Source: Rhodoflexus caldus
GTDB lineage: Bacteria > Bacteroidota > Bacteroidia > Cytophagales > Thermoflexibacteraceae
Reading direction: 5' to 3'
DNA: 64,000 nt
Assembly (NCBI RefSeq): GCF_021206925.1
Contig: NZ_JAJPRF010000004.1
Span: 248,001-312,000, forward strand
In this document: positions 25,874-42,226 of the stretch, one piece after another
Layout: each line of letters begins with the position of its first letter
Numbering within the stretch: position 1 is the first letter of the stretch
The notes under the pieces: generated by a model
Told to the model about the DNA's origin: nothing
What the model saw: the letters and a program-made list of their open reading frames with translations, nothing else
Database searches by the model: none
Made by a program: the position numbers and the translations under genes

Positions 25874-26263
25874 ATGAAAGTAAAGCACTTTAATTTAAGC
25901 GTAGGCGAACAGTTTTTCAAGGCATTGGGAGATGAGTCGCGCCTGCGAATCTTGTTCTTACTGTACAAAAACAAAGAAATGTGCATTTCCGACTTGGAAA
26001 TGGTGCTGGATTTTACGCAAACCAAGATTTCGCGCCATTTGGCCTATCTCAAAAATGCCGGATTGGTCAATTACCGAAAAATTGACCAATGGGTTTTTTA
26101 CAGTATCAAAGACGAATTGAGCGAATTTATTGAGCAGATTTTCCGCTACCTGAACAAAGATGCCGACCTGCAAAAAGACCTGAAAATTTACAATACACTA
26201 CTCTCTAACCGCGAATTGGCAGCTAACCGCATCCTGTTAGGACAAATTAACCGATGGCGCTAA
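25874..26263 (+). CDS. ArsR/SmtB-family transcriptional regulator
   Basis: The 129-residue protein is a winged-helix repressor-type dimer subunit: FFKALGDESRLRILFLLYKN near 14, then the recognition helix region FTQTKISRHLAYLKNAGLVN and wing YRKIDQWVFYSI. The metal-binding cysteine box of many relatives (ELCVCDL) is reduced to MCISDLEM with one Cys, and no His/Asp ligand set is seen in the last helix, so a metal signal is unlikely. It is divergent from the GT39 gene, sharing 102 bases, and precedes the histidine-kinase operon by 94 bases. It may control either side. Confidence 0.88.
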   Translation: MKVKHFNLSVGEQFFKALGDESRLRILFLLYKNKEMCISDLEMVLDFTQTKISRHLAYLKNAGLVNYRKIDQWVFYSIKDELSEFIEQIFRYLNKDADLQKDLKIYNTLLSNRELAANRILLGQINRWR

Positions 26264-26285: not shown

Positions 26286-26357
26286 TGCGATTTTATTTCA
26301 CTTTTACAGCAAATTTAGGTATCTTAGCACACTTTATCACCTTTCATCATACGGTTG

Positions 26358-28544
26358 ATGTTGTTGTTGCGCCTTCTGCCTTTTATTTTTTGCTTTCTCG
26401 GCCTTTGGCCGCTTGCGGCAGCTCAGCAAGAGATACTGTTGCACGGCAAGGTTGTGTTTGATGACGGACGACCTGCTGTAAATATTGAATTTCAGGTAGA
26501 TAACTTACGTCCTTTCACTACCGACAGAAAAGGCCAATTTGGCAGCATGATTCCTGCCTCGTTCAACAGCCCGAAACAGGTACGCGTAAACAATGACAAA
26601 CTTTCCGTAGTCAATTGGTTTTACGATACGGAACAGCAACTGCTGCAAATCACCCTTCGGGCATCGCAGCAAAACCTCGTCGGCAGGGTTATTACACGCA
26701 CCGGCGACCCTATTAACAATGCCAATGTTGCCGTTATCGTACAAGGCACGGAAGTAGGCAGCGGCATCAGCGATGAAAACGGCTATTTCGCGTTTTTCAT
26801 ACCCGCCGACATCAAACTTTCGCCACAGGCTACCGTCAAAGTCAATCAGTCAGTGCTTAGCACCGATGATGTGAAAATATCTTTAAACGACCGCAACAAC
26901 TACTTTCTGCATTTGTATTACAAGCAGCCCGCCAATGCGGAGTTGTATGCAGTTGTTGTTTATGACCATCAGAAACGACTGCAAAACGAGGCGCGCGTGA
27001 TTTACAATCGGCAGGAATTTGCAGCCGACAGCAAAGGTGTTATTTACGTGCCTTTATCGGGGTTGCAGGATATGCCGAAACTCAAAGTAGCAGGCGGTGT
27101 TGTTACTGCACGCAATTTCAGCACCCCGCTCAAACGCATCAGCCTCTACACGGCACCTGCTGCCCCTGCCAAAGCGGCAACAGACACCGGGCAGGCATAC
27201 ATGCGCTATTTTGACGAAATTACGCGGTCGCTGGAAGGCAATCGTGCAGAAATTGAAAAATACAACACCCTCATCACCCATGAGATGGAAAAACTGACCA
27301 AGCGTTTTTCCGCCGATAACAACATCCACCCCGAAGAAGCCCGCCGCTATTTGGCACGCATGGAAATTTTGGAGCAATTGCTGCTAAAAAACCACAGCCT
27401 GATGACAGCAGGCAACGAACAGACCCGCAGCGCTTTAATGCGTCTGAAAGATGCCATTGCCGCAAGGGACTCGCTTTCCCAAATCACGCATCAACAGATA
27501 GCCGAACTTGCCGATAAAAATGCCGAACTTGACCGCGCCAACAAGCGCATAGAAAGCGATACGCAGTTTAAACTCATGATTGCCGCCGGATTAATCACCG
27601 CTTTTGTGGGGATGAGTTTGGCCATTGGCTACCTCTACAAACGCACCGTTCGCCAAAAGGAGCAATTGGAAGTTACCAATACCGAACTGCGCACCACACT
27701 GGCAGCACTTAAAAAAACACAGGCACAATTAGTACAGCAAGACCGCATGACCTCACTGGGACAAATGGCGGCAGGCATTGCGCATGAAATCAACAACCCT
27801 ATCAATTTTATTTATGCAGGAGCCGATTCGCTGCGAAGAAATTTTATTGATTTAAAACAACTGCTGACCATTTACCGCAATCCGGCACTGCACAACGGCA
27901 GCAAGCAAAGTGCTATTGAACAATGGGAGAAAGTCCACAACGCCGACATGTTGCTCAACGAAAGCGAAGAACTTGTTGCAAGCCTCAAACGAGGGGCTAC
28001 CCGTACCTTTGAAATTGTACAGGGATTGCGCAGCTTCGCCCGTATAGATGAAGAAAATCTCATCAAACTAACCAACATTGAAGAAAGTTTAGACAATGTG
28101 CTTATGCTGTTGAGCGGGCAATTTGCCAGCCGTATCCAAATAGAAAAATACTACGGAAACATTCCGAAGATAGAGTGCTACCCTGCCCGATTGAATCAGG
28201 TGTTTCTCAATTTATTGATTAACGCCATAGAATCCATTGACAATCAGGGCATTATATTTATTACCACTACTTACCCCGCCAAAGGACGGCACGTACCGTC
28301 CGACATGAAGGATGCCGTAGCAATCACCATTGCCGATACAGGCCGCGGTATTTCCCAGAAACATCTGCCCCATATTTTTGACCCCTTTTTTACTACCAAA
28401 GAAGTTGGCGATGGCGTAGGCCTCGGGCTTTCCATCGCATTAGGCATCGTAAAAGAACACGGCGGCAATATCGTCGCCAACAGCCGCGAAGGAAAAGGCA
28501 GCCAATTTCTCATTATTTTACCGCGTCAATTAGCCCATACCTGA
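26358..28544 (+). CDS. Membrane histidine kinase with carboxypeptidase-regulatory-like sensor region
   Basis: The 728-residue protein has a signal peptide (MLLLRLLPFIFCFLGLWPLA, ending AAAQ), two beta-sandwich modules similar to carboxypeptidase regulatory domains (about 25-190, with GKVVFDDGRPAVNIEF and GRVITRTGDPINNANVAV), a further periplasmic region and coiled coil (about 290-400), one transmembrane helix (about 405-427), and a cytoplasmic kinase core. The phospho-acceptor is H476 in MAAGIAHEINNPINF; the ATPase part shows LNLLINAIESID, IADTGRGIS and GVGLGLSIALGIVKEHGG. It should autophosphorylate and pass phosphate to the response regulator starting one base after its stop. The carbohydrate-like sensor fold suggests an extracytoplasmic ligand, not identified. 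A TTG one codon earlier is possible. Confidence 0.9.
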   Translation: MLLLRLLPFIFCFLGLWPLAAAQQEILLHGKVVFDDGRPAVNIEFQVDNLRPFTTDRKGQFGSMIPASFNSPKQVRVNNDKLSVVNWFYDTEQQLLQITLRASQQNLVGRVITRTGDPINNANVAVIVQGTEVGSGISDENGYFAFFIPADIKLSPQATVKVNQSVLSTDDVKISLNDRNNYFLHLYYKQPANAELYAVVVYDHQKRLQNEARVIYNRQEFAADSKGVIYVPLSGLQDMPKLKVAGGVVTARNFSTPLKRISLYTAPAAPAKAATDTGQAYMRYFDEITRSLEGNRAEIEKYNTLITHEMEKLTKRFSADNNIHPEEARRYLARMEILEQLLLKNHSLMTAGNEQTRSALMRLKDAIAARDSLSQITHQQIAELADKNAELDRANKRIESDTQFKLMIAAGLITAFVGMSLAIGYLYKRTVRQKEQLEVTNTELRTTLAALKKTQAQLVQQDRMTSLGQMAAGIAHEINNPINFIYAGADSLRRNFIDLKQLLTIYRNPALHNGSKQSAIEQWEKVHNADMLLNESEELVASLKRGATRTFEIVQGLRSFARIDEENLIKLTNIEESLDNVLMLLSGQFASRIQIEKYYGNIPKIECYPARLNQVFLNLLINAIESIDNQGIIFITTTYPAKGRHVPSDMKDAVAITIADTGRGISQKHLPHIFDPFFTTKEVGDGVGLGLSIALGIVKEHGGNIVANSREGKGSQFLIILPRQLAHT

Positions 28545-28545
28545 T

Positions 28546-29751
28546 ATGATGCTTCCGCAAAGGCAGGCAAAAATCCTGTACGTAGATGATGAGATTGATA
28601 ATCTGACCATCTTTAAAGCAGCTTTTCGCAGATTATACGATATTCAAACCGCCCTTTCGGGCAAAGAAGCGCTGCAAATGATGCGCAATCAGCCGCCTGA
28701 GCACCCCTTTGACGTGCTGATTACCGACCAACGCATGCCCGAAATGACAGGCGTGGAACTCTTGGAGATAGCTGCCGCAGAGTTTCCGCAAACCGTGCGC
28801 ATGATGCTCACAGGCTACTCCGACATGGAAGCCATCATCCGCGCCATCAACAAGGGCAATATTTTTCGCTATTTGACCAAACCTTGGGAACTTGACGAGC
28901 TTCGCCAAGCCATAGATGAAGCCTTCATTATGGCAAGGCAACGCAATCACTTAGCGACCGAAACTGCCGATACCAATGCTCCGCAAACGGCAGAATGGGG
29001 CATTTTAATGCAACTGCAACAAATCATACAACCGACCGAAGAAGCCGTCAAAGCCGTATGCAAAGATGCTTTTATCTTTCGCCCGCAGGCCGGACAACCC
29101 GAGAAATCAATGATGGCTTTTTACCATTTGGCAGAAAAAAAACAAAGCCTTGTCATCACTGCCGTCTGCCTGACCGAAGACCTGCCCAAAGGCGCTATTT
29201 TTAGCCTGATAATCAAACACTTGACAGACAGCGCCGTGCTCAATGGCATCACCCTGCCCGCCTGCTTGCTGGCCGAATTGCAACTCAACTTTTGCACAGC
29301 CTCCCGCATTATGCCGCATGTAACCGACCTTTCCATAGGCATCACGCTCATTAACCATCAGGCCAACCGATTGATATTTGCCGGAACTTGCCAAAACCTG
29401 ATAGTTATTACGGCAGGCGAAACACAAGTTTTGCAAGGTATGCCCCAACCATTGGGTAAAAGCAATAATGCCTTCAATGCGGATGATTTCCAACAACACG
29501 AGCAGCCGTTCAGCCCTAATCGGACAGTCTTTTATATGGCTACCACGGGCATGGCAGAGCATCTGTGCGGCTTCAAAAACAGGGCTTTTGCCGGGCAATA
29601 TCTCGTAGAAATTCTGGAAGAATTGCATAATTTGCCCGCTGTACGCCAAAAACAACTCATCCGTTCGCTGTGGGACGAGTGGCAGGCGCAACCAACCGCT
29701 GCCGCCAACACCCCCGCGACAGACCCTCTGATAATCGGCATAAGCATTTAA
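28546..29751 (+). CDS. Response regulator with degenerate (inactive) SpoIIE/PP2C-like output domain
   Basis: The 401-residue protein has a complete receiver domain (residues 8-130: acidic pair D14/D15, phospho-acceptor D61 in ITDQRMPEM, T89, K112 in YLTKPW) and a C-terminal domain (about 170-380) that follows the SpoIIE phosphatase strand by strand but lacks the metal-binding residues. Against the active enzyme at 38807-42226, SGDFYWF has become MMAFYHL (Asp to A191), VVDCTGHGVPG has become AVCLTEDLPKG (Asp to C208), and FTDGYAD has become ATTGMAE (Asp to T334). It is therefore predicted to bind a partner without dephosphorylating it. It lies 1 base after the kinase gene and 2 bases before the LRR gene. 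Confidence 0.85.
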   Translation: MMLPQRQAKILYVDDEIDNLTIFKAAFRRLYDIQTALSGKEALQMMRNQPPEHPFDVLITDQRMPEMTGVELLEIAAAEFPQTVRMMLTGYSDMEAIIRAINKGNIFRYLTKPWELDELRQAIDEAFIMARQRNHLATETADTNAPQTAEWGILMQLQQIIQPTEEAVKAVCKDAFIFRPQAGQPEKSMMAFYHLAEKKQSLVITAVCLTEDLPKGAIFSLIIKHLTDSAVLNGITLPACLLAELQLNFCTASRIMPHVTDLSIGITLINHQANRLIFAGTCQNLIVITAGETQVLQGMPQPLGKSNNAFNADDFQQHEQPFSPNRTVFYMATTGMAEHLCGFKNRAFAGQYLVEILEELHNLPAVRQKQLIRSLWDEWQAQPTAAANTPATDPLIIGISI

Positions 29752-29753
29752 CA

Positions 29754-31097
29754 ATGAAGCCCTTACTACCACTAACGCTCTTGTTTCTACTCTCAGCGGG
29801 CAGCCTTTCGGCACAAATCCCAACCTTTTTGCTTCGCCGTCATACAGCATCCGCAGAGGCTGCCCACTCTACCCGCAAAGACACTATCTTGTATCTTGAT
29901 TTATCGGGACGCAACCTGACTGCTATTCCCGAATGGGTATATGCCTGCACCAATCTGCGCACGCTGGATTTGAGCCGCAATCCGATTGCCGAACTGCCGC
30001 GCCGCCTCAATCGCCTGAAAAAACTCCATAAAATCACCTGCGACGGCACGCCGATACAACAGCAACGCTTTGCACCCGACAGTTTAATGACCGAAAGGCT
30101 CAAAAGCATGTCGGCTGCCCGACAGCGTCAGGTACTGGACAGCTTCGCCACGCTGAACAGCGCACAGACTGAAGCTGTTGAGCAGCAACTATTAAAAATC
30201 GGCAAGTTGCGCCACGTTCGCACGCTGGTTATTAACAACCGCTACTTAACTGAAATGCCGCGTGTGTGGAAAATCCGCAAGTTAGATACGCTCAATATCA
30301 GCCGCAACCGCCTCACTTCGCTGCCGCACCAAATGAAGAAACTAAAGCATCTGAGTGCATTTTATGCCGACTACAACCGCCTCACACATGATATTACATG
30401 GTATCCGCTGCCGCAATTAAAAAAACTAAGCCTGATTTCCAATCGGTTGGAAATATTGCCGCCCGCAATCGGGCAATACCGCTCGCTGATATCCATCAAT
30501 GTGGCCGGTAATAAAATTGCACAGGTAGCCCCCGAAACAGCCCGCTTGCAGCAGTTGCGGCAAATCATTCTGTACGGTAATCAACTTACTGCCATCCCCG
30601 ACTGCATTTTTGATTTGCAGGCATTGGAAGAATTGGATGTGTACATGAATCAGATAACGGAAGTCCCCGAAAAAATCAGCCACCTGAAAAATCTGACACA
30701 TTTGTACCTGTCTTTCAACCGAATTGAAAAACTGCCCGAAAGTATTGCCCAACTGCAACACTTAAAAGGTCTTTATGCGCACCGCAACCGCCTGAGTCAA
30801 TTGAGTGACAGCTACGCGGCGCTGCAAAATCTGGAAGTGCTGCGCGTACAGGAAAACCGTTTGAGCATTTTCCCCAACTTCATCCTGCAACTACCCAACA
30901 TTCGCGAAGTGAACGTGGCACAAAACCAACTGTCCGACCTGCCGATAGAAAAATTGATGGATTTGCCGAAACTTTCGTTTTTTCATGCCAACAGCAACCC
31001 GTTTATGCCCGAATTTTTAGAAAGTCGGCTTGTAAAAGAATTCCTGCAAAAAGGCGAAAACCGAAAACTCAACTACGTAATCACGGGCAGGGATTAA
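29754..31097 (+). CDS. Exported leucine-rich-repeat protein
   Basis: The product (447 residues from ATG 29754) has a signal peptide (MKPLLPLTLLFLLSAGSLSA, cleaved before Q) and about a dozen leucine-rich repeats of the 23-residue bacterial type, such as LRTLDLSRNPIAELPRRLN, LDTLNISRNRLTSLPHQM and LTHLYLSFNRIEKLPESI. A shorter, less regular segment (about 100-150) splits the first repeats from the rest. LRR solenoids bind proteins or glycans; this one should be periplasmic or surface-exposed. Its position as third gene, 2 bases after the response regulator, suggests it works with the kinase's sensor region. The last 4 bases overlap the convergent RIC gene. An upstream ATG at 29670 is rejected because it would hide the signal peptide. 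Confidence 0.87.
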   Translation: MKPLLPLTLLFLLSAGSLSAQIPTFLLRRHTASAEAAHSTRKDTILYLDLSGRNLTAIPEWVYACTNLRTLDLSRNPIAELPRRLNRLKKLHKITCDGTPIQQQRFAPDSLMTERLKSMSAARQRQVLDSFATLNSAQTEAVEQQLLKIGKLRHVRTLVINNRYLTEMPRVWKIRKLDTLNISRNRLTSLPHQMKKLKHLSAFYADYNRLTHDITWYPLPQLKKLSLISNRLEILPPAIGQYRSLISINVAGNKIAQVAPETARLQQLRQIILYGNQLTAIPDCIFDLQALEELDVYMNQITEVPEKISHLKNLTHLYLSFNRIEKLPESIAQLQHLKGLYAHRNRLSQLSDSYAALQNLEVLRVQENRLSIFPNFILQLPNIREVNVAQNQLSDLPIEKLMDLPKLSFFHANSNPFMPEFLESRLVKEFLQKGENRKLNYVITGRD

Positions 31098-31852
31098 TTC
31101 AATCCCGCTTTTTCCTGCATCAGGCGCTTCACTTTACTTTCCAGCGCAAAGGCTTTGGGCAAAAGGATGCGATTTTCTATGGCTGCATGTGCTTGCAACT
31201 CATTTTCAAAGCGTTGCAGCTCGGAGTAAAGCACGCGAATAACCAACGGAGTGGTGGCATCGGTTGCATAGTCGCGGGTTAGTTCGCGGATGCCGCGCAT
31301 ATCGTCGTCATCGTCGTGGTGGTGTGCCGCAATGCTCTGCATAGTATGTTTCTGCATAGCAAAAAAGGCTTTACCCAATCCGCCGCGATGATACAGGGCA
31401 TCGTCCAGCACCAAAATATAGCGGAAAGTTTCGTTTTCTTCTTCCAAAATGTGGCGTACAAAATCTTCTGCAAACAGCGGGAAAGCAATTTTCAAATCGT
31501 CCAGCGTTTCCTGCATGGCAGATGACAGGTTTTGCGGCTGTGCACGGCTCACCAAGTGTTGCATATAGGGCAGGCGGCGGCGCATAAACACGCGATGCGA
31601 ATTTTTCAGGTAGTCAATAATGGCATCTACCGTGTAGCCTTTGAGCAACTCGGGCATGGAAAATCGCTCTTGTTGTCGCATAGACTCCCACTCTTTCAAG
31701 ATGGGGGCTGTGCTCATGCGCTTCTCGCGACAAACCGCTTCTAATGTTTTATTGCCATGCTGACAAAAATCAATGCCAAACAAATGCAATACCGCACCGA
31801 TGGAATGATGCTCTGCAACCAACTCGGAAAGGCTTTTTTCACGCGACAGCAT
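31094..31852 (-). CDS. ric: Iron-sulfur cluster repair protein RIC/ScdA-like
   Basis: The 252-residue protein has the N-terminal DUF542/ScdA_N domain (about 5-60, with HHSIGAVLHLFGIDFCQHGN and TLEAVC) and a hemerythrin-like di-iron domain (about 80-250) with HRVFMRRRLPYMQHL, FVRHILEEENETFRYI, and FENELQAHAAIENRILLPKA giving the His and Glu ligands. The family repairs iron-sulfur clusters damaged by nitric oxide or oxidants. Typical members have a double Cys after the Phe (FCC); here it reads FCQ. A low-complexity HHHDDDDD run (about residue 178) is unusual. No regulator is adjacent. Confidence 0.85.
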   Translation of the reverse strand: MLSREKSLSELVAEHHSIGAVLHLFGIDFCQHGNKTLEAVCREKRMSTAPILKEWESMRQQERFSMPELLKGYTVDAIIDYLKNSHRVFMRRRLPYMQHLVSRAQPQNLSSAMQETLDDLKIAFPLFAEDFVRHILEEENETFRYILVLDDALYHRGGLGKAFFAMQKHTMQSIAAHHHDDDDDMRGIRELTRDYATDATTPLVIRVLYSELQRFENELQAHAAIENRILLPKAFALESKVKRLMQEKAGLN

Positions 31853-33606: not shown

Positions 33607-34056
33607 ATGAAGACTACCGACTTAATGAACCAGACACTTTTCAATGATGACTTTTTGCATCTTGAGTATTTGCCTACCGAAAACGTATTGATTGAAACTT
33701 GGTATGGATTTGTGGATTACGCGCGTTTTGTAACGGCTACTCCCATTGTTTTGCAGGCCATTCAGCAAACCGGAGCGCACTTGCTGCTTTCCGATTTGAG
33801 TAAGTTGAAAGTACTCCGCGAAGATGCCTACTCCTACTTGGTACATGAAAAAACACGCCAATTAGCCCGTCAAGGTATTCAGGCATATGCGCTGAGCATC
33901 AATCCTGAAAAAGCAGGCGGCACAGCAACGGCCAATCTGATTAATGTACATGTAAGCCTTGGCGGCAACCACTTAGACCTCGCCTGTTTCCACAACACGC
34001 GCGAAGCTGGCATTTGGTTGAAAGAAAAAAGTTTGCAACCACAGCTAAACATGTAA
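33607..34056 (+). CDS. STAS/SpoIIAA-like protein
   Basis: This 149-residue cytoplasmic protein has no signal peptide and no enzyme motif. The beta-alpha order (LHLEYLPTENVLIETWYGF, a helix in which TPIVLQAIQQTGAH lies, then LLLSDLSKL, then a long helix and the strand AYALSINPEK) fits the SpoIIAA-like or STAS-like domains common as single-domain proteins in Cytophagales. A second protein with this look is at 56282-56668. Such domains can act in partner-switching with SpoIIE-type phosphatases and anti-sigma kinases. No kinase or sigma factor is adjacent; gldB follows 50 bases later on the same strand. Confidence 0.5.
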   Translation: MKTTDLMNQTLFNDDFLHLEYLPTENVLIETWYGFVDYARFVTATPIVLQAIQQTGAHLLLSDLSKLKVLREDAYSYLVHEKTRQLARQGIQAYALSINPEKAGGTATANLINVHVSLGGNHLDLACFHNTREAGIWLKEKSLQPQLNM

Positions 34057-38806: not shown

Positions 38807-41800
38807 TTACACCATCAAGCCCACCAGCAAAATATCATCTACCTGCGCCTCGCTGCCCATCCAGTCGGTGAGGTGCTTGTCAAAGGCCGCCTGCTGTTGA
38901 TGAATCGGTAAAGCCCCTACCCGCTCGCAAAGGTCGCGGAAATGCTTTATCATCAGTTTGTGGTTGTTCGCTCCGCCAATCTGGTCGGCGTAACCGTCGG
39001 TGAACATATACAGCACATCACCTGCGTGTACGTCTATTGTCTGTGCGGAAAACAGTCGTTCCGTTTCTTTTTGGAATCCGCCGATTGACAAGCGGTCTGC
39101 CTTGTACTCGGTCAGTATGCTGTTGCGAACCAGATACAGCGAGTTGCGCGCACCGGAAAACTGGACGGTACTTGCCAGCGGGTCATAAACAATCACCGAC
39201 ATATCCATACCGTCGCGGTTGATGCCTTTTTCCTGTTGCAGGGCTTCCCGCACGTGTTGGTGCATGGCATTGAGAATCATTGCCGTGTCGGGTTGAGACT
39301 GCTCGGCTGCAATGCTGTTGAGGAATGAAGTACCCAACATACTCATCATCGCACCGGGAACGCCGTGCCCTGTACAATCCACTACGGCAACTATTATTTT
39401 GCCCTGTTTTTCGGCAAACCAGTAAAAATCGCCGCTGACAATATCGCGCGGGCGATTCAGGATAAAATAGCCTGAAAAAAAGCGGGATAGTTCGTTTGCA
39501 TCGGGCAGCATGGCATCCTGAATGCGGCGGGCATAGCGAATGCTGCTTTCCGTGTTTTCCTGTTGCAGGCGAATCTGGTCGCGCTGCATTTCTATTTCGC
39601 GGTTTTGCTGCTGTACCCGCGCCAAAGTGCGGCTCAGTTCGTTGTTCAAATCAAACAACTGCTCGTTGGCATGGCTCAGTTCGGCAGATTTTTGCTGAAT
39701 AACCTCGTTCTGAGTCTTAATCTGTGCCAGCGTAGCCTCCAACTCTGCATTGGCACTGCTCAACTCTTGTGTGCGCAGGGCAACCTGTTGCGCCAGTGTG
39801 GCTTTTTCGTTGGCAACGGCACGCAACCGCCACTCGCCAATCAGCCAAATCACCAGAATGGCAACCACAATGTACAGCGCATAGGCAACCACCGTCCGAT
39901 ACCACGGTGCCTTAATGGCAAAGTGGTACTCTGCCTCGCTGCTGATATTGCCGAAAACATCGCGGGCACGCACCCGAAACACATAATGACCTTCGGCAAG
40001 GTTGGTGTACTCCTTGTAGCGGCTGTCGCTCCACTCGCTCCATTCTTTTTCCAAACCGTCCAATTTGCATTGGAATCGGTTGGCATGGGGACTGTTAAAG
40101 GCGGTAGCCGTAAAATCAAACCGAATCCGATTCCACTCGTAGGGCAGGTCTGGACTGAAAACAGCAGACTGTTCAGTTACCGCAAGCCCTTCTTTATTGG
40201 CAAAGTTGCCGTAGAACAAAGTTGAATCTTGCCCGATACTTACGCGCCGTATCAATGCGCGGAAAGTAAAATCCGTGGAAATATTTTCCTTGCGCTCGTA
40301 GCGGTAAATCCCATTGATATCGCTGAACCAAACGGCGGAGCTGTCGCCCGTGTAAATTGCCTGAACGGCATGTAGCTCGTCCAAACGGTTCAACGAACCG
40401 GGGCGATACACATAGCCGTTATCCGTTTTTTGCAGGAAACCCGCCTCTATCTTGCCCCGATGCGCAGAAAACAGCCAAATATTGCCCTTGGGGTCGGTAG
40501 CAGGAAGCATTACTTTACGGCCTTCGCTGTTGAAAGGTTGGTCAAATGCACTGTCGGGGACAAACTTGCCGCCTTCGTATTTGTAAATGCCGCGCTCGGT
40601 GGCTACCCGAATTTGACCTTTGATAAGAAACAGGTGGTTATCGGCAAGCGATGGCAGCCCCTCTGCCGTTCCCAAACGGCGAATCTGAGGAGTCATGCTG
40701 AACTTGTAGCTGCTGCCCTTGGCAAAGTCAATCAGGTAGATGCCGTTGTTCAGCGTGGCAGCCCATACGTTGCCGTCCTTATCTTCTTTGATGTGGCGGA
40801 TATCGTCGCGCAGGCCTTCAAACTTCCCCTCGTCTATCCAGTTGCCGTTTTTGCGGTAGATGCAGCGCATACTGTACGCCGAACCTACAAACACGCGGTC
40901 GGGGTCTATGTGCGAACGTTCAAAGCAAAAAATATTGGGGGGCGTAGATTCTTCGCCAATGTCGCCGACAGCATCGCCGCGCAGCAACTTAACCCCCATA
41001 AAAGTACCGACAAGCAAATCCTTGTCCACAGGCAACAATGCCCAACAGTCCAACTTGAACCCCTGCACCGGCTCAAACTGTGCGTCGTAAAAACGGCGGG
41101 TGGCTGCCGCATGTGTCAACTCGCGGGGTGCCAAACGAAAAAGACCGCTCAAAGTAGCTACATACAGTTTGCCCTGATGCTTGGCAATGGCATTAACGGC
41201 TCCTTTCAGTTGCTGGTACTGCTCGTTATACAACTGAAATTCAGAGGGATACTCCATACGGGCAATACCGTTATACATCCCCATCCAAAGCCCGTTTTGT
41301 CCATCTTCGGCAAAAGACAGCACAAAGTCATCCGCCAAGCCGTTGCGTTTGTTATAGATGCCCTGCAATTTGCCGTTTTCATCAATCATCAGCACCCCTA
41401 CGCCGAGCATACCGACAGCCAGCGTTTTGTTGTTTTTACCGTAGTTAATCCACTGTGCGTTGTAGCTTCTGAAATCGCGCAGCAATTCGTCCGCCTCTGT
41501 GTTCCACTTAACTATTTTACCCTGTTGCGTAGTGTAAAGCCCCATGTTTTGCACGCAAATCAGCAACTCGTTGGTACCCCACGGCAATACCTGACTGATG
41601 AGGGAAGCGGAAAACATGTCTGTGTCTTTAACGGGAACTAATTTGCTGCCTACCCACTTCATTAGGCCGCGGTCGCTTTGCTGCACATAAAACTGGTCGC
41701 GCACGGCAAAACCGAAACTAAAAAACGTTTCTGCCGGAACAATCTGCAAATACGGCTGCCCTTTGTTTTCTTTCAAAATAAAAACGGATTCGTCGGCCTG

Positions 41801-42226
41801 AAAAAATACGCCCTCTGTGAGGCAATTAACCGTCCATACTTCACCGAATGAGCGTTTGTCGGCAGGAAGCAGGCTTTGCAGCGACTGGTAACGCATACGC
41901 CCAAGCGAATCTACCTGCAAATAACCGAAATGCCCTACGCCTCCGGCATAAATCCGCCCTTTGGCATCTCTTGCCAACGTGCGGACAGCACCGCCCGTTT
42001 TGATAAGTTTCCACTGATTGCCATCGTACTCCAATATGCCGTTATCGTTGCCAAAATAGAGGATTCCTCGCCCGTCTTGCACGATAGCCCAGTTAGCCAT
42101 GCCGGCTTTGTATTCTTTGGGGAGGTAATTATGTATAAAAGGCATACCGCGCTCGTTTGTTTGCCCGCATACCATACAGGTGCAGGCCAGCAGCGCTGCC
42201 AGCAGTAATACCAATCGCTTTGTCAT
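38807..42226 (-). CDS. Beta-propeller sensor with SpoIIE-family phosphatase output
   Basis: The 1139-residue protein has a signal peptide (1-21), a two-component-regulator propeller sensor (about 30-690, with repeats such as YFGNDNGILEYDGNQWKLI and GRIYAGGVGHFGYLQVD), a Y_Y_Y-type Ig domain (about 690-770, FQCKLDGLEKEWSEW), a transmembrane helix (about 775-797), a coiled coil (about 805-900) and a PP2C/SpoIIE domain (about 900-1139) with all metal residues visible: SGDFYWF, VVDCTGHGVPGAMMS, MFTDGYADQ. The outside propeller should control a cytoplasmic Ser/Thr phosphatase. Its target may be a STAS-type protein such as those at 33607 or 56282, but no direct link is shown. Confidence 0.9.
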   Translation of the reverse strand: MTKRLVLLLAALLACTCMVCGQTNERGMPFIHNYLPKEYKAGMANWAIVQDGRGILYFGNDNGILEYDGNQWKLIKTGGAVRTLARDAKGRIYAGGVGHFGYLQVDSLGRMRYQSLQSLLPADKRSFGEVWTVNCLTEGVFFQADESVFILKENKGQPYLQIVPAETFFSFGFAVRDQFYVQQSDRGLMKWVGSKLVPVKDTDMFSASLISQVLPWGTNELLICVQNMGLYTTQQGKIVKWNTEADELLRDFRSYNAQWINYGKNNKTLAVGMLGVGVLMIDENGKLQGIYNKRNGLADDFVLSFAEDGQNGLWMGMYNGIARMEYPSEFQLYNEQYQQLKGAVNAIAKHQGKLYVATLSGLFRLAPRELTHAAATRRFYDAQFEPVQGFKLDCWALLPVDKDLLVGTFMGVKLLRGDAVGDIGEESTPPNIFCFERSHIDPDRVFVGSAYSMRCIYRKNGNWIDEGKFEGLRDDIRHIKEDKDGNVWAATLNNGIYLIDFAKGSSYKFSMTPQIRRLGTAEGLPSLADNHLFLIKGQIRVATERGIYKYEGGKFVPDSAFDQPFNSEGRKVMLPATDPKGNIWLFSAHRGKIEAGFLQKTDNGYVYRPGSLNRLDELHAVQAIYTGDSSAVWFSDINGIYRYERKENISTDFTFRALIRRVSIGQDSTLFYGNFANKEGLAVTEQSAVFSPDLPYEWNRIRFDFTATAFNSPHANRFQCKLDGLEKEWSEWSDSRYKEYTNLAEGHYVFRVRARDVFGNISSEAEYHFAIKAPWYRTVVAYALYIVVAILVIWLIGEWRLRAVANEKATLAQQVALRTQELSSANAELEATLAQIKTQNEVIQQKSAELSHANEQLFDLNNELSRTLARVQQQNREIEMQRDQIRLQQENTESSIRYARRIQDAMLPDANELSRFFSGYFILNRPRDIVSGDFYWFAEKQGKIIVAVVDCTGHGVPGAMMSMLGTSFLNSIAAEQSQPDTAMILNAMHQHVREALQQEKGINRDGMDMSVIVYDPLASTVQFSGARNSLYLVRNSILTEYKADRLSIGGFQKETERLFSAQTIDVHAGDVLYMFTDGYADQIGGANNHKLMIKHFRDLCERVGALPIHQQQAAFDKHLTDWMGSEAQVDDILLVGLMV

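Follow-up and report, generated by a model that had tools for sequence, protein, structure and literature searches.

How a two-component operon could deliver its signal when the response regulator has no DNA-binding domain and carries a phosphatase fold stripped of its active site, and why an exported leucine-rich-repeat (LRR) protein should be encoded directly behind it, are the questions raised by a locus of Rhodoflexus caldus. The locus lies in a stretch of 64,000 nucleotides (contig NZ_JAJPRF010000004.1, positions 248,001 to 312,000), referred to as the window; genomes are designated by G-numbers, contigs by C-numbers and loci by L-numbers. Three co-directional open reading frames on the + strand span 26358-31097 in the order kinase, regulator and LRR protein, with intergenic gaps of 1 base (kinase/regulator) and 2 bases (regulator/LRR); the open frames total 1576 codons in the focal genome. 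These coordinates agree with the tight operon described in an earlier, sequence-only reading of this DNA. The operon encodes a two-component system without DNA-binding output, whose regulator most likely acts by protein binding. Its features are as follows:

26358-28544, + strand: sensor histidine kinase, 728 aa (Pfam, AlphaFold2, motif inspection)
26430-27158, + strand: predicted periplasmic Ig/CarboxypepD_reg-like beta-sandwich region of the kinase, residues 25-267, the second domain being the CarboxypepD_reg match
27756-28529, + strand: HisKA-HATPase_c kinase core, residues 467-724, catalytic residues present
28546-29751, + strand: response regulator with a receiver and a predicted catalytically dead PP2C (SpoIIE/PPM) domain, 401 aa (Pfam, homologues, structure)
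28573-28914, + strand: receiver domain, residues 10-123, phospho-acceptor D61 present
28984-29748, + strand: pseudo-PP2C domain, residues 147-401, with GD, DCTGHG and SDG lost and one Asp of the final DD left
29754-31097, + strand: exported LRR protein, 447 aa (signal peptide by eye, Pfam LRR families)

The receiver of the regulator keeps D14, D15, D61, T89 and K112 and is the only part of the protein detected by Pfam (Response_reg); the PP2C part goes undetected. Alignment with six receiver-PP2C relatives places the missing motifs: the Asp of GD is deleted and its Gly is A191, the DCTGHG position reads CLTEDL (residues 208-213), the SDG position reads TTG (residues 333-335), and the final DD is TD (residues 392-393), in which D393 alone remains. 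The metal-binding Asp motifs by which a PP2C phosphatase is recognized (GD, DxxGHG, DG) are thus absent, and the domain is, to judge by its residues, catalytically dead, as the sequence-only reading had held. The background in the same genome is one of intact enzymes: at least 17 other PP2C proteins (those read) have intact motifs, DCTGHG and [ST]DG being kept in 17 of 17 and GDF in 16 of 17. Identity to the six relatives is 45-64% in the receiver and 21-24% in the PP2C part, where the relatives share 34-86% among themselves; the inter-domain linker is also shorter than theirs. The fold itself is backed by homologues and by structure. An AlphaFold2 model of the regulator (mean pLDDT 76) has a PP2C fold and superposes on the PP2C domain of SiaA with a Z of 25.5 over 236 residues at 3.0 Å, with RssB matching too; Foldseek ranks E. 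coli RssB first (8.9e-19), and an alignment profile of the regulator matches SiaA (6.9e-55) and P. aeruginosa RssB (2.1e-14). Among solved structures, the nearest are those of RssB from E. coli and P. aeruginosa and of the PP2C domain of SiaA. The retained fold and the surviving Asp of the final pair could suit an enzyme with different metal ligands or one that cleaves a different bond; however, of the four conserved acidic motif positions three have been lost, one of these through a deletion, and other residues stand in place of the GHG loop, making continued enzymatic activity highly improbable.

The kinase is matched by Pfam HATPase_c (E 1e-21) and HisKA (E 1.5e-7), and H476 and the N, G and F boxes are kept by inspection. 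Between them the two proteins carry the hallmarks of a two-component pair, namely the His and ATP-binding motifs of the kinase and the acidic pocket, acceptor Asp, Thr and Lys of the receiver. A signal peptide and one membrane helix (approximately residues 404-425) were both called by eye. A single CarboxypepD_reg match (E 5e-7) falls slightly under the curated cut-off; AlphaFold2 predicts three beta-sandwich domains across residues 25-267 followed by long helices, in a model with a mean pLDDT of 57.6 in which residues 25-260 lie mostly at ~60-86 and confidence is low past residue 270. With three such domains predicted, the description of this region as carboxypeptidase-regulatory-like modules is a fair one. 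The N-terminal part shows distant homology to the N-terminal parts of other kinases and of PP2C proteins.

To our knowledge, RssB stands alone among well-studied response regulators in working through a dead phosphatase. In E. coli it has a receiver and, behind it, a PP2C fold devoid of active-site residues, with a protein-binding output that phosphorylation stimulates, as described in passages of PMC7226468 and PMC12143880; the latter, in its remarks on ancestry, suggests that an ancestral phosphatase lost its activity and became an adaptor, and it presents P. aeruginosa RssB as both active phosphatase and adaptor. The focal regulator shows the same succession of a receiver and a PP2C fold lacking its active site. 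The claim that no such system is known by name consequently fails for the regulator, for which E. coli RssB is the first Foldseek match; a system combining kinase, dead PP2C and LRR protein was not found described in the open literature searched. RssB is a sigma-S adaptor with a ClpXP role, and the focal regulator is predicted to resemble it in architecture and fold. The two differ in that identity is only ~20%, that the focal operon has a cognate membrane kinase, and that the focal PP2C domain is full-length whereas E. coli RssB is described in part of PMC12143880 as C-terminally truncated; the RssB equivalog models also fall far short (NF007969, 31.8 bits against a cut-off of 329; NF045505, 29.2 against 700). 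Likeness to SiaABC lies in the SiaA PP2C domain, the best single-domain structural match, and in SiaB and SiaC homologues, which occur in the focal genome and beside a second dead regulator described below. According to the relevant portion of PMC7647112, SiaC is phosphorylated by SiaB and dephosphorylated by SiaA, which is active on SiaC-P, whereas the focal domain appears dead and receiver-controlled and has no adjoining SiaB or SiaC. DUF1987/SiaC proteins are STAS-like and are proposed, in the part of PMC8457831 that treats them, to regulate partner proteins.

Loss of these motifs is not confined to this locus. Among 23 receiver-PP2C proteins read from the order, three have lost them (the focal protein and those of G249 and G267) and the other 20 are intact, one with DCKGHG; left out of the count were L203, L204, L206-L208 and L211-L215, whose output is not PP2C, and the duplicates L010 and L178. 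The G249 and G267 regulators are 79% identical to each other and read SEEF, EFDGKG and SNG at the motif positions. They belong to two genera of another family and sit in loci of one type, encoding in order an active PP2C protein, a kinase, the dead receiver-PP2C protein, SiaB (DUF6272) and SiaC, and a 180-aa protein:

L187:9720-14866 and L216:8750-13752: the G249/G267-type locus

SiaB and SiaC were assigned by a Pfam test on G249; identity of the G267 counterparts to these is 88% and 73%. Between the two genomes, identity reaches 75% in the dead PP2C part, where silent sites are saturated, against 59% in the adjoining active PP2C protein; a dead receiver-PP2C can therefore be a constrained, working part. 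These proteins share with the focal operon a kinase paired with a receiver-pseudo-PP2C protein in which GD, DCTGHG and SDG are lost; they differ in their substitutions (EE, EFDGKG, SNG), in lying nearer to active relatives than to the focal protein, and in being flanked by SiaB-SiaC with no LRR gene. Their setting points to a SiaC partner switch. SiaB-SiaC genes also lie ~3.4 kb from the active receiver-PP2C gene of G007. Four SiaC genes are found in the focal genome, all with a SiaB-type neighbour (L174, L175, L176, L181), and one of these pairs adjoins an active PP2C gene; the SiaC genes are located on C11, C2, C2 and C7, that is, on other contigs or far from the window, which lies on C4, and a linked SiaB kinase and SiaC phosphoprotein are absent from the focal operon. 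As a separate observation, a 149-aa protein at 33607-34056 of the window, labelled STAS-like in the sequence-only reading, has no match in Pfam, nor does it significantly match the 134-aa protein encoded near the regulator of G007.

The proposed function is that the kinase would sense a periplasmic signal through its beta-sandwich domains and phosphorylate D61, and that this phosphorylation would switch whether the pseudo-PP2C domain binds a partner. The partner would most likely be a SiaC/STAS-type phosphoprotein once dephosphorylated by the ancestral enzyme, which the regulator may hold or shield in competition with those PP2C enzymes of the cell that are still active; speculatively, the LRR protein, exported from the same operon, may attach to material of the envelope or from outside the cell in the vicinity of the sensor. 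Action by protein binding is well supported, by analogy with RssB and by selection, and was anticipated by the sequence-only reading. That the regulator became a phosphorylation-controlled, protein-binding output derived from a receiver-phosphatase is held with moderate confidence. The step from catalysis to binding proposed for RssB seems to have been taken here as well and separately in G249/G267. A bolder form is quite doubtful: that Bacteroidota have at least two times, independently of RssB, converted receiver-phosphatases into receiver-pseudophosphatases which sequester SiaC/STAS-type phosphoproteins on the command of a sensor kinase, and that in the focal lineage a dedicated co-receptor, the exported LRR protein, serves to read the Ig-like periplasmic part of the kinase. 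The interest of these proteins lies in their being two unrelated cases in a phylum other than that of RssB, one of them beside SiaB-SiaC; catalytic loss here suggests a recurrent route from signalling phosphatase to switchable binding protein, and the G249/G267 setting names candidate partners. For the LRR protein to be of interest, a direct link between it and the sensor would have to be shown.

To follow conservation, each protein was searched against 59 relatives; the regulator, the LRR protein and the kinase N-terminal part were also searched against 390 genomes of the order. Of the 59, 8 are matched by the regulator at E 1e-40 and 20 by the LRR protein at 1e-25, counts that include the focal genome. 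The three-gene order occurs in the sampled genomes only in the focal species and as one broken relic in its sister species G003, and a kinase-regulator-LRR system conserved across genera was accordingly rejected. What recurs is the pair: in G008, G011 and G012 kinase and regulator genes overlap or lie 4 bases apart, with whole-length identity to the focal proteins of 34-35% (kinase) and 33-35% (regulator). These pairs resemble the focal operon in gene order and sensor type, but have intact PP2C motifs and no LRR gene after them. The kinase-regulator pair is older than the three-gene order; elsewhere in the family it is found with an intact phosphatase and no LRR gene. A kinase also lies close to the regulator in G050, G077, G102, G127, G249 and G267; a scan of genome contigs gave six loci, three being the G003, G012 and G011 contigs and three matching mainly in the receiver.

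The relic lies at the same chromosomal place (L082:2635-4630). Its kinase has an early stop followed by a ~2.1 kb deletion that fuses kinase residue ~134 to regulator residue ~116; the regulator has a further deletion of ~0.2 kb and a stop; the LRR gene has lost 10 bases at one point and, in frame, ~480 bases that lay between two similar repeats, the latter loss removing several repeats. Behind the ArsR-type gene that precedes the operon, the four genomes of the genus thus hold the operon (focal), the relic (G003) and other genes (G001 and G002). Where they survive, the motifs of the relic are lost in the same way (EKSMTAFY, ACLTE, ATTG), which dates the predicted loss of catalysis to before the focal and G003 species split. 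Between focal genome and relic, residues 282-401 of the pseudo-PP2C domain show 19.5 replacement and 15.5 silent differences, a pN/pS of 0.36 (bootstrap 0.19-0.68, Fisher P 0.002) that comes from one sequence pair with tests assuming independent sites. Kinase residues 24-135 give 0.24, LRR residues 1-127 give 0.33 and LRR residues 344-447 give 0.09, while the flanking RIC-like and FolD genes give 0.08 each; each of the stretches compared shows a deficit of replacements, the pseudo-PP2C domain included. The intact branch is probably more constrained than these values suggest, because the other branch ends in a pseudogene. In a relative-rate look at the LRR gene, 7 sites side with the focal genome and the relic is favoured by 2, numbers too small to be of use.

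Several points weigh against a working protein-binding switch. Intact three-gene copies number one in the sampled genomes; the operon has been lost in one sister species and is lacking in two others, and is therefore dispensable; the pN/pS figure mixes one constrained and one decaying branch. The dead PP2C part of G249/G267 is not closely related to the focal one, and no LRR gene adjoins it. No SiaB, SiaC or anti-sigma gene stands beside the focal operon, and the partner proposed for the regulator is therefore a guess. It could be supposed that the whole operon is decaying, the phosphatase having died under relaxed selection with the remainder to follow as in the sister species; the stops and deletions in all three genes of G003, the two species without the operon and the fast evolution of the PP2C part fit this account. 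It is nonetheless unlikely, as all three frames are open in the focal genome, the receiver and kinase motifs are intact, replacements are depleted throughout, the dead domain included, and a conserved dead receiver-PP2C exists elsewhere.

The place of the LRR protein is more evenly contested. Its Pfam matches are essentially LRR families and, with the signal peptide called by eye, bear out an exported LRR protein as third gene; neither a lipobox nor a secretion tail is seen. Identity as a type III effector or internalin was rejected, since NCBIfam matches to XopAC, XopL and internalin fall far short of the cut-offs (186 bits where 450 are required, for example) and thus reflect a shared repeat only. 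In the order, 7 genomes have an LRR match at E 1e-45. The sequence-only reading had suggested that the LRR protein brings a ligand to the sensor; it may equally be a passenger, the product of an independent gene for an exported LRR protein which landed behind a kinase-regulator pair and has no signalling role, and the chances of this are about even. Five full-length homologues in five genera outside the genus (G008:C67, G004:C46, G009:C74, G143:C362 and G025:C11; 32-37% identity) have an adjoining kinase or receiver gene in 0 of 5 cases, the nearest signalling genes being a PP2C gene two genes off on the opposite strand (G008:C67), a PP2C gene ~4 kb off (G004:C46) and a gene ~2.3 kb off that weakly matches the kinase ATPase part (G025:C11); the G008, G011 and G012 pairs, lacking an adjoining LRR gene, likewise favour a passenger. 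A search of 13 genomes of the family gave 47 matches to the kinase N-terminal part at E 1e-3, counted as 43 genes, and 155 to the LRR protein at 1e-6, of which those listed reach ~3e-7; among the matches listed, only 3 of the 43 sensor genes lie within 5 kb of an LRR match, by eye (focal, its relic and G008:C80). However, the 2-base gap implies co-expression of the LRR gene, the three genes occur together and broke together, and the C-terminus of the LRR protein is strongly constrained, as its low pN/pS indicates. The G008:C80 sensor also speaks against a passenger: it has the same type of N-terminal part (30% identity over ~168 residues) with an intact PP2C output, and an exported LRR gene follows 54 bases downstream (L135:3477-6995). 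The LRR protein there is 26% identical to the focal one and is not its closest homologue; among the matches listed, G011 and G012, genus-mates of G008, have no contig with both a sensor and an LRR match. The chance expectation for one adjoining sensor-LRR pair among 41 sensors is ~0.06, a rough and weak post hoc estimate from very roughly 80 LRR genes per some 50,000 genes. The claim that the LRR protein serves the sensor is weak, possible but close to refuted by the criterion set in the sequence-only reading. The gene-neighbourhood search proposed earlier upheld the kinase-regulator pair but returned the full order only here and in the relic. An order unique to this genome with homologues in unrelated places, named beforehand as fatal to the idea, is nearly what was found, the exceptions being the relic, the recurring pair and G008:C80.

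The borders of the operon are formed by two genes:

25874-26263, + strand: ArsR/SmtB-type repressor gene, upstream neighbour, 94 bases from the operon
31094-31852, - strand: RIC/ScdA-like iron-sulfur repair protein, convergent downstream border, match below the curated cut-off

The ArsR-type gene is present in 4 of 4 genomes of the genus and is therefore not specific to the operon; the RIC-like gene overlaps the stop of the LRR gene by 4 bases. The GC content of the three genes (0.48-0.50) is that of the window (0.495), and composition thus gives no sign of a foreign origin. The operon corresponds to no known anti-phage system in PADLOC, whose models match 0 of its 3 proteins. Scans for promoters and terminators gave counts no higher than chance expectation; a TAnnTTTG-like box with one mismatch at 26320 was not used as evidence. 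One of the PP2C proteins with intact motifs counted above, an exported protein of 1139 aa whose PP2C domain is active, is encoded approximately 8 kb downstream of the operon, at 38807-42226 of the window.

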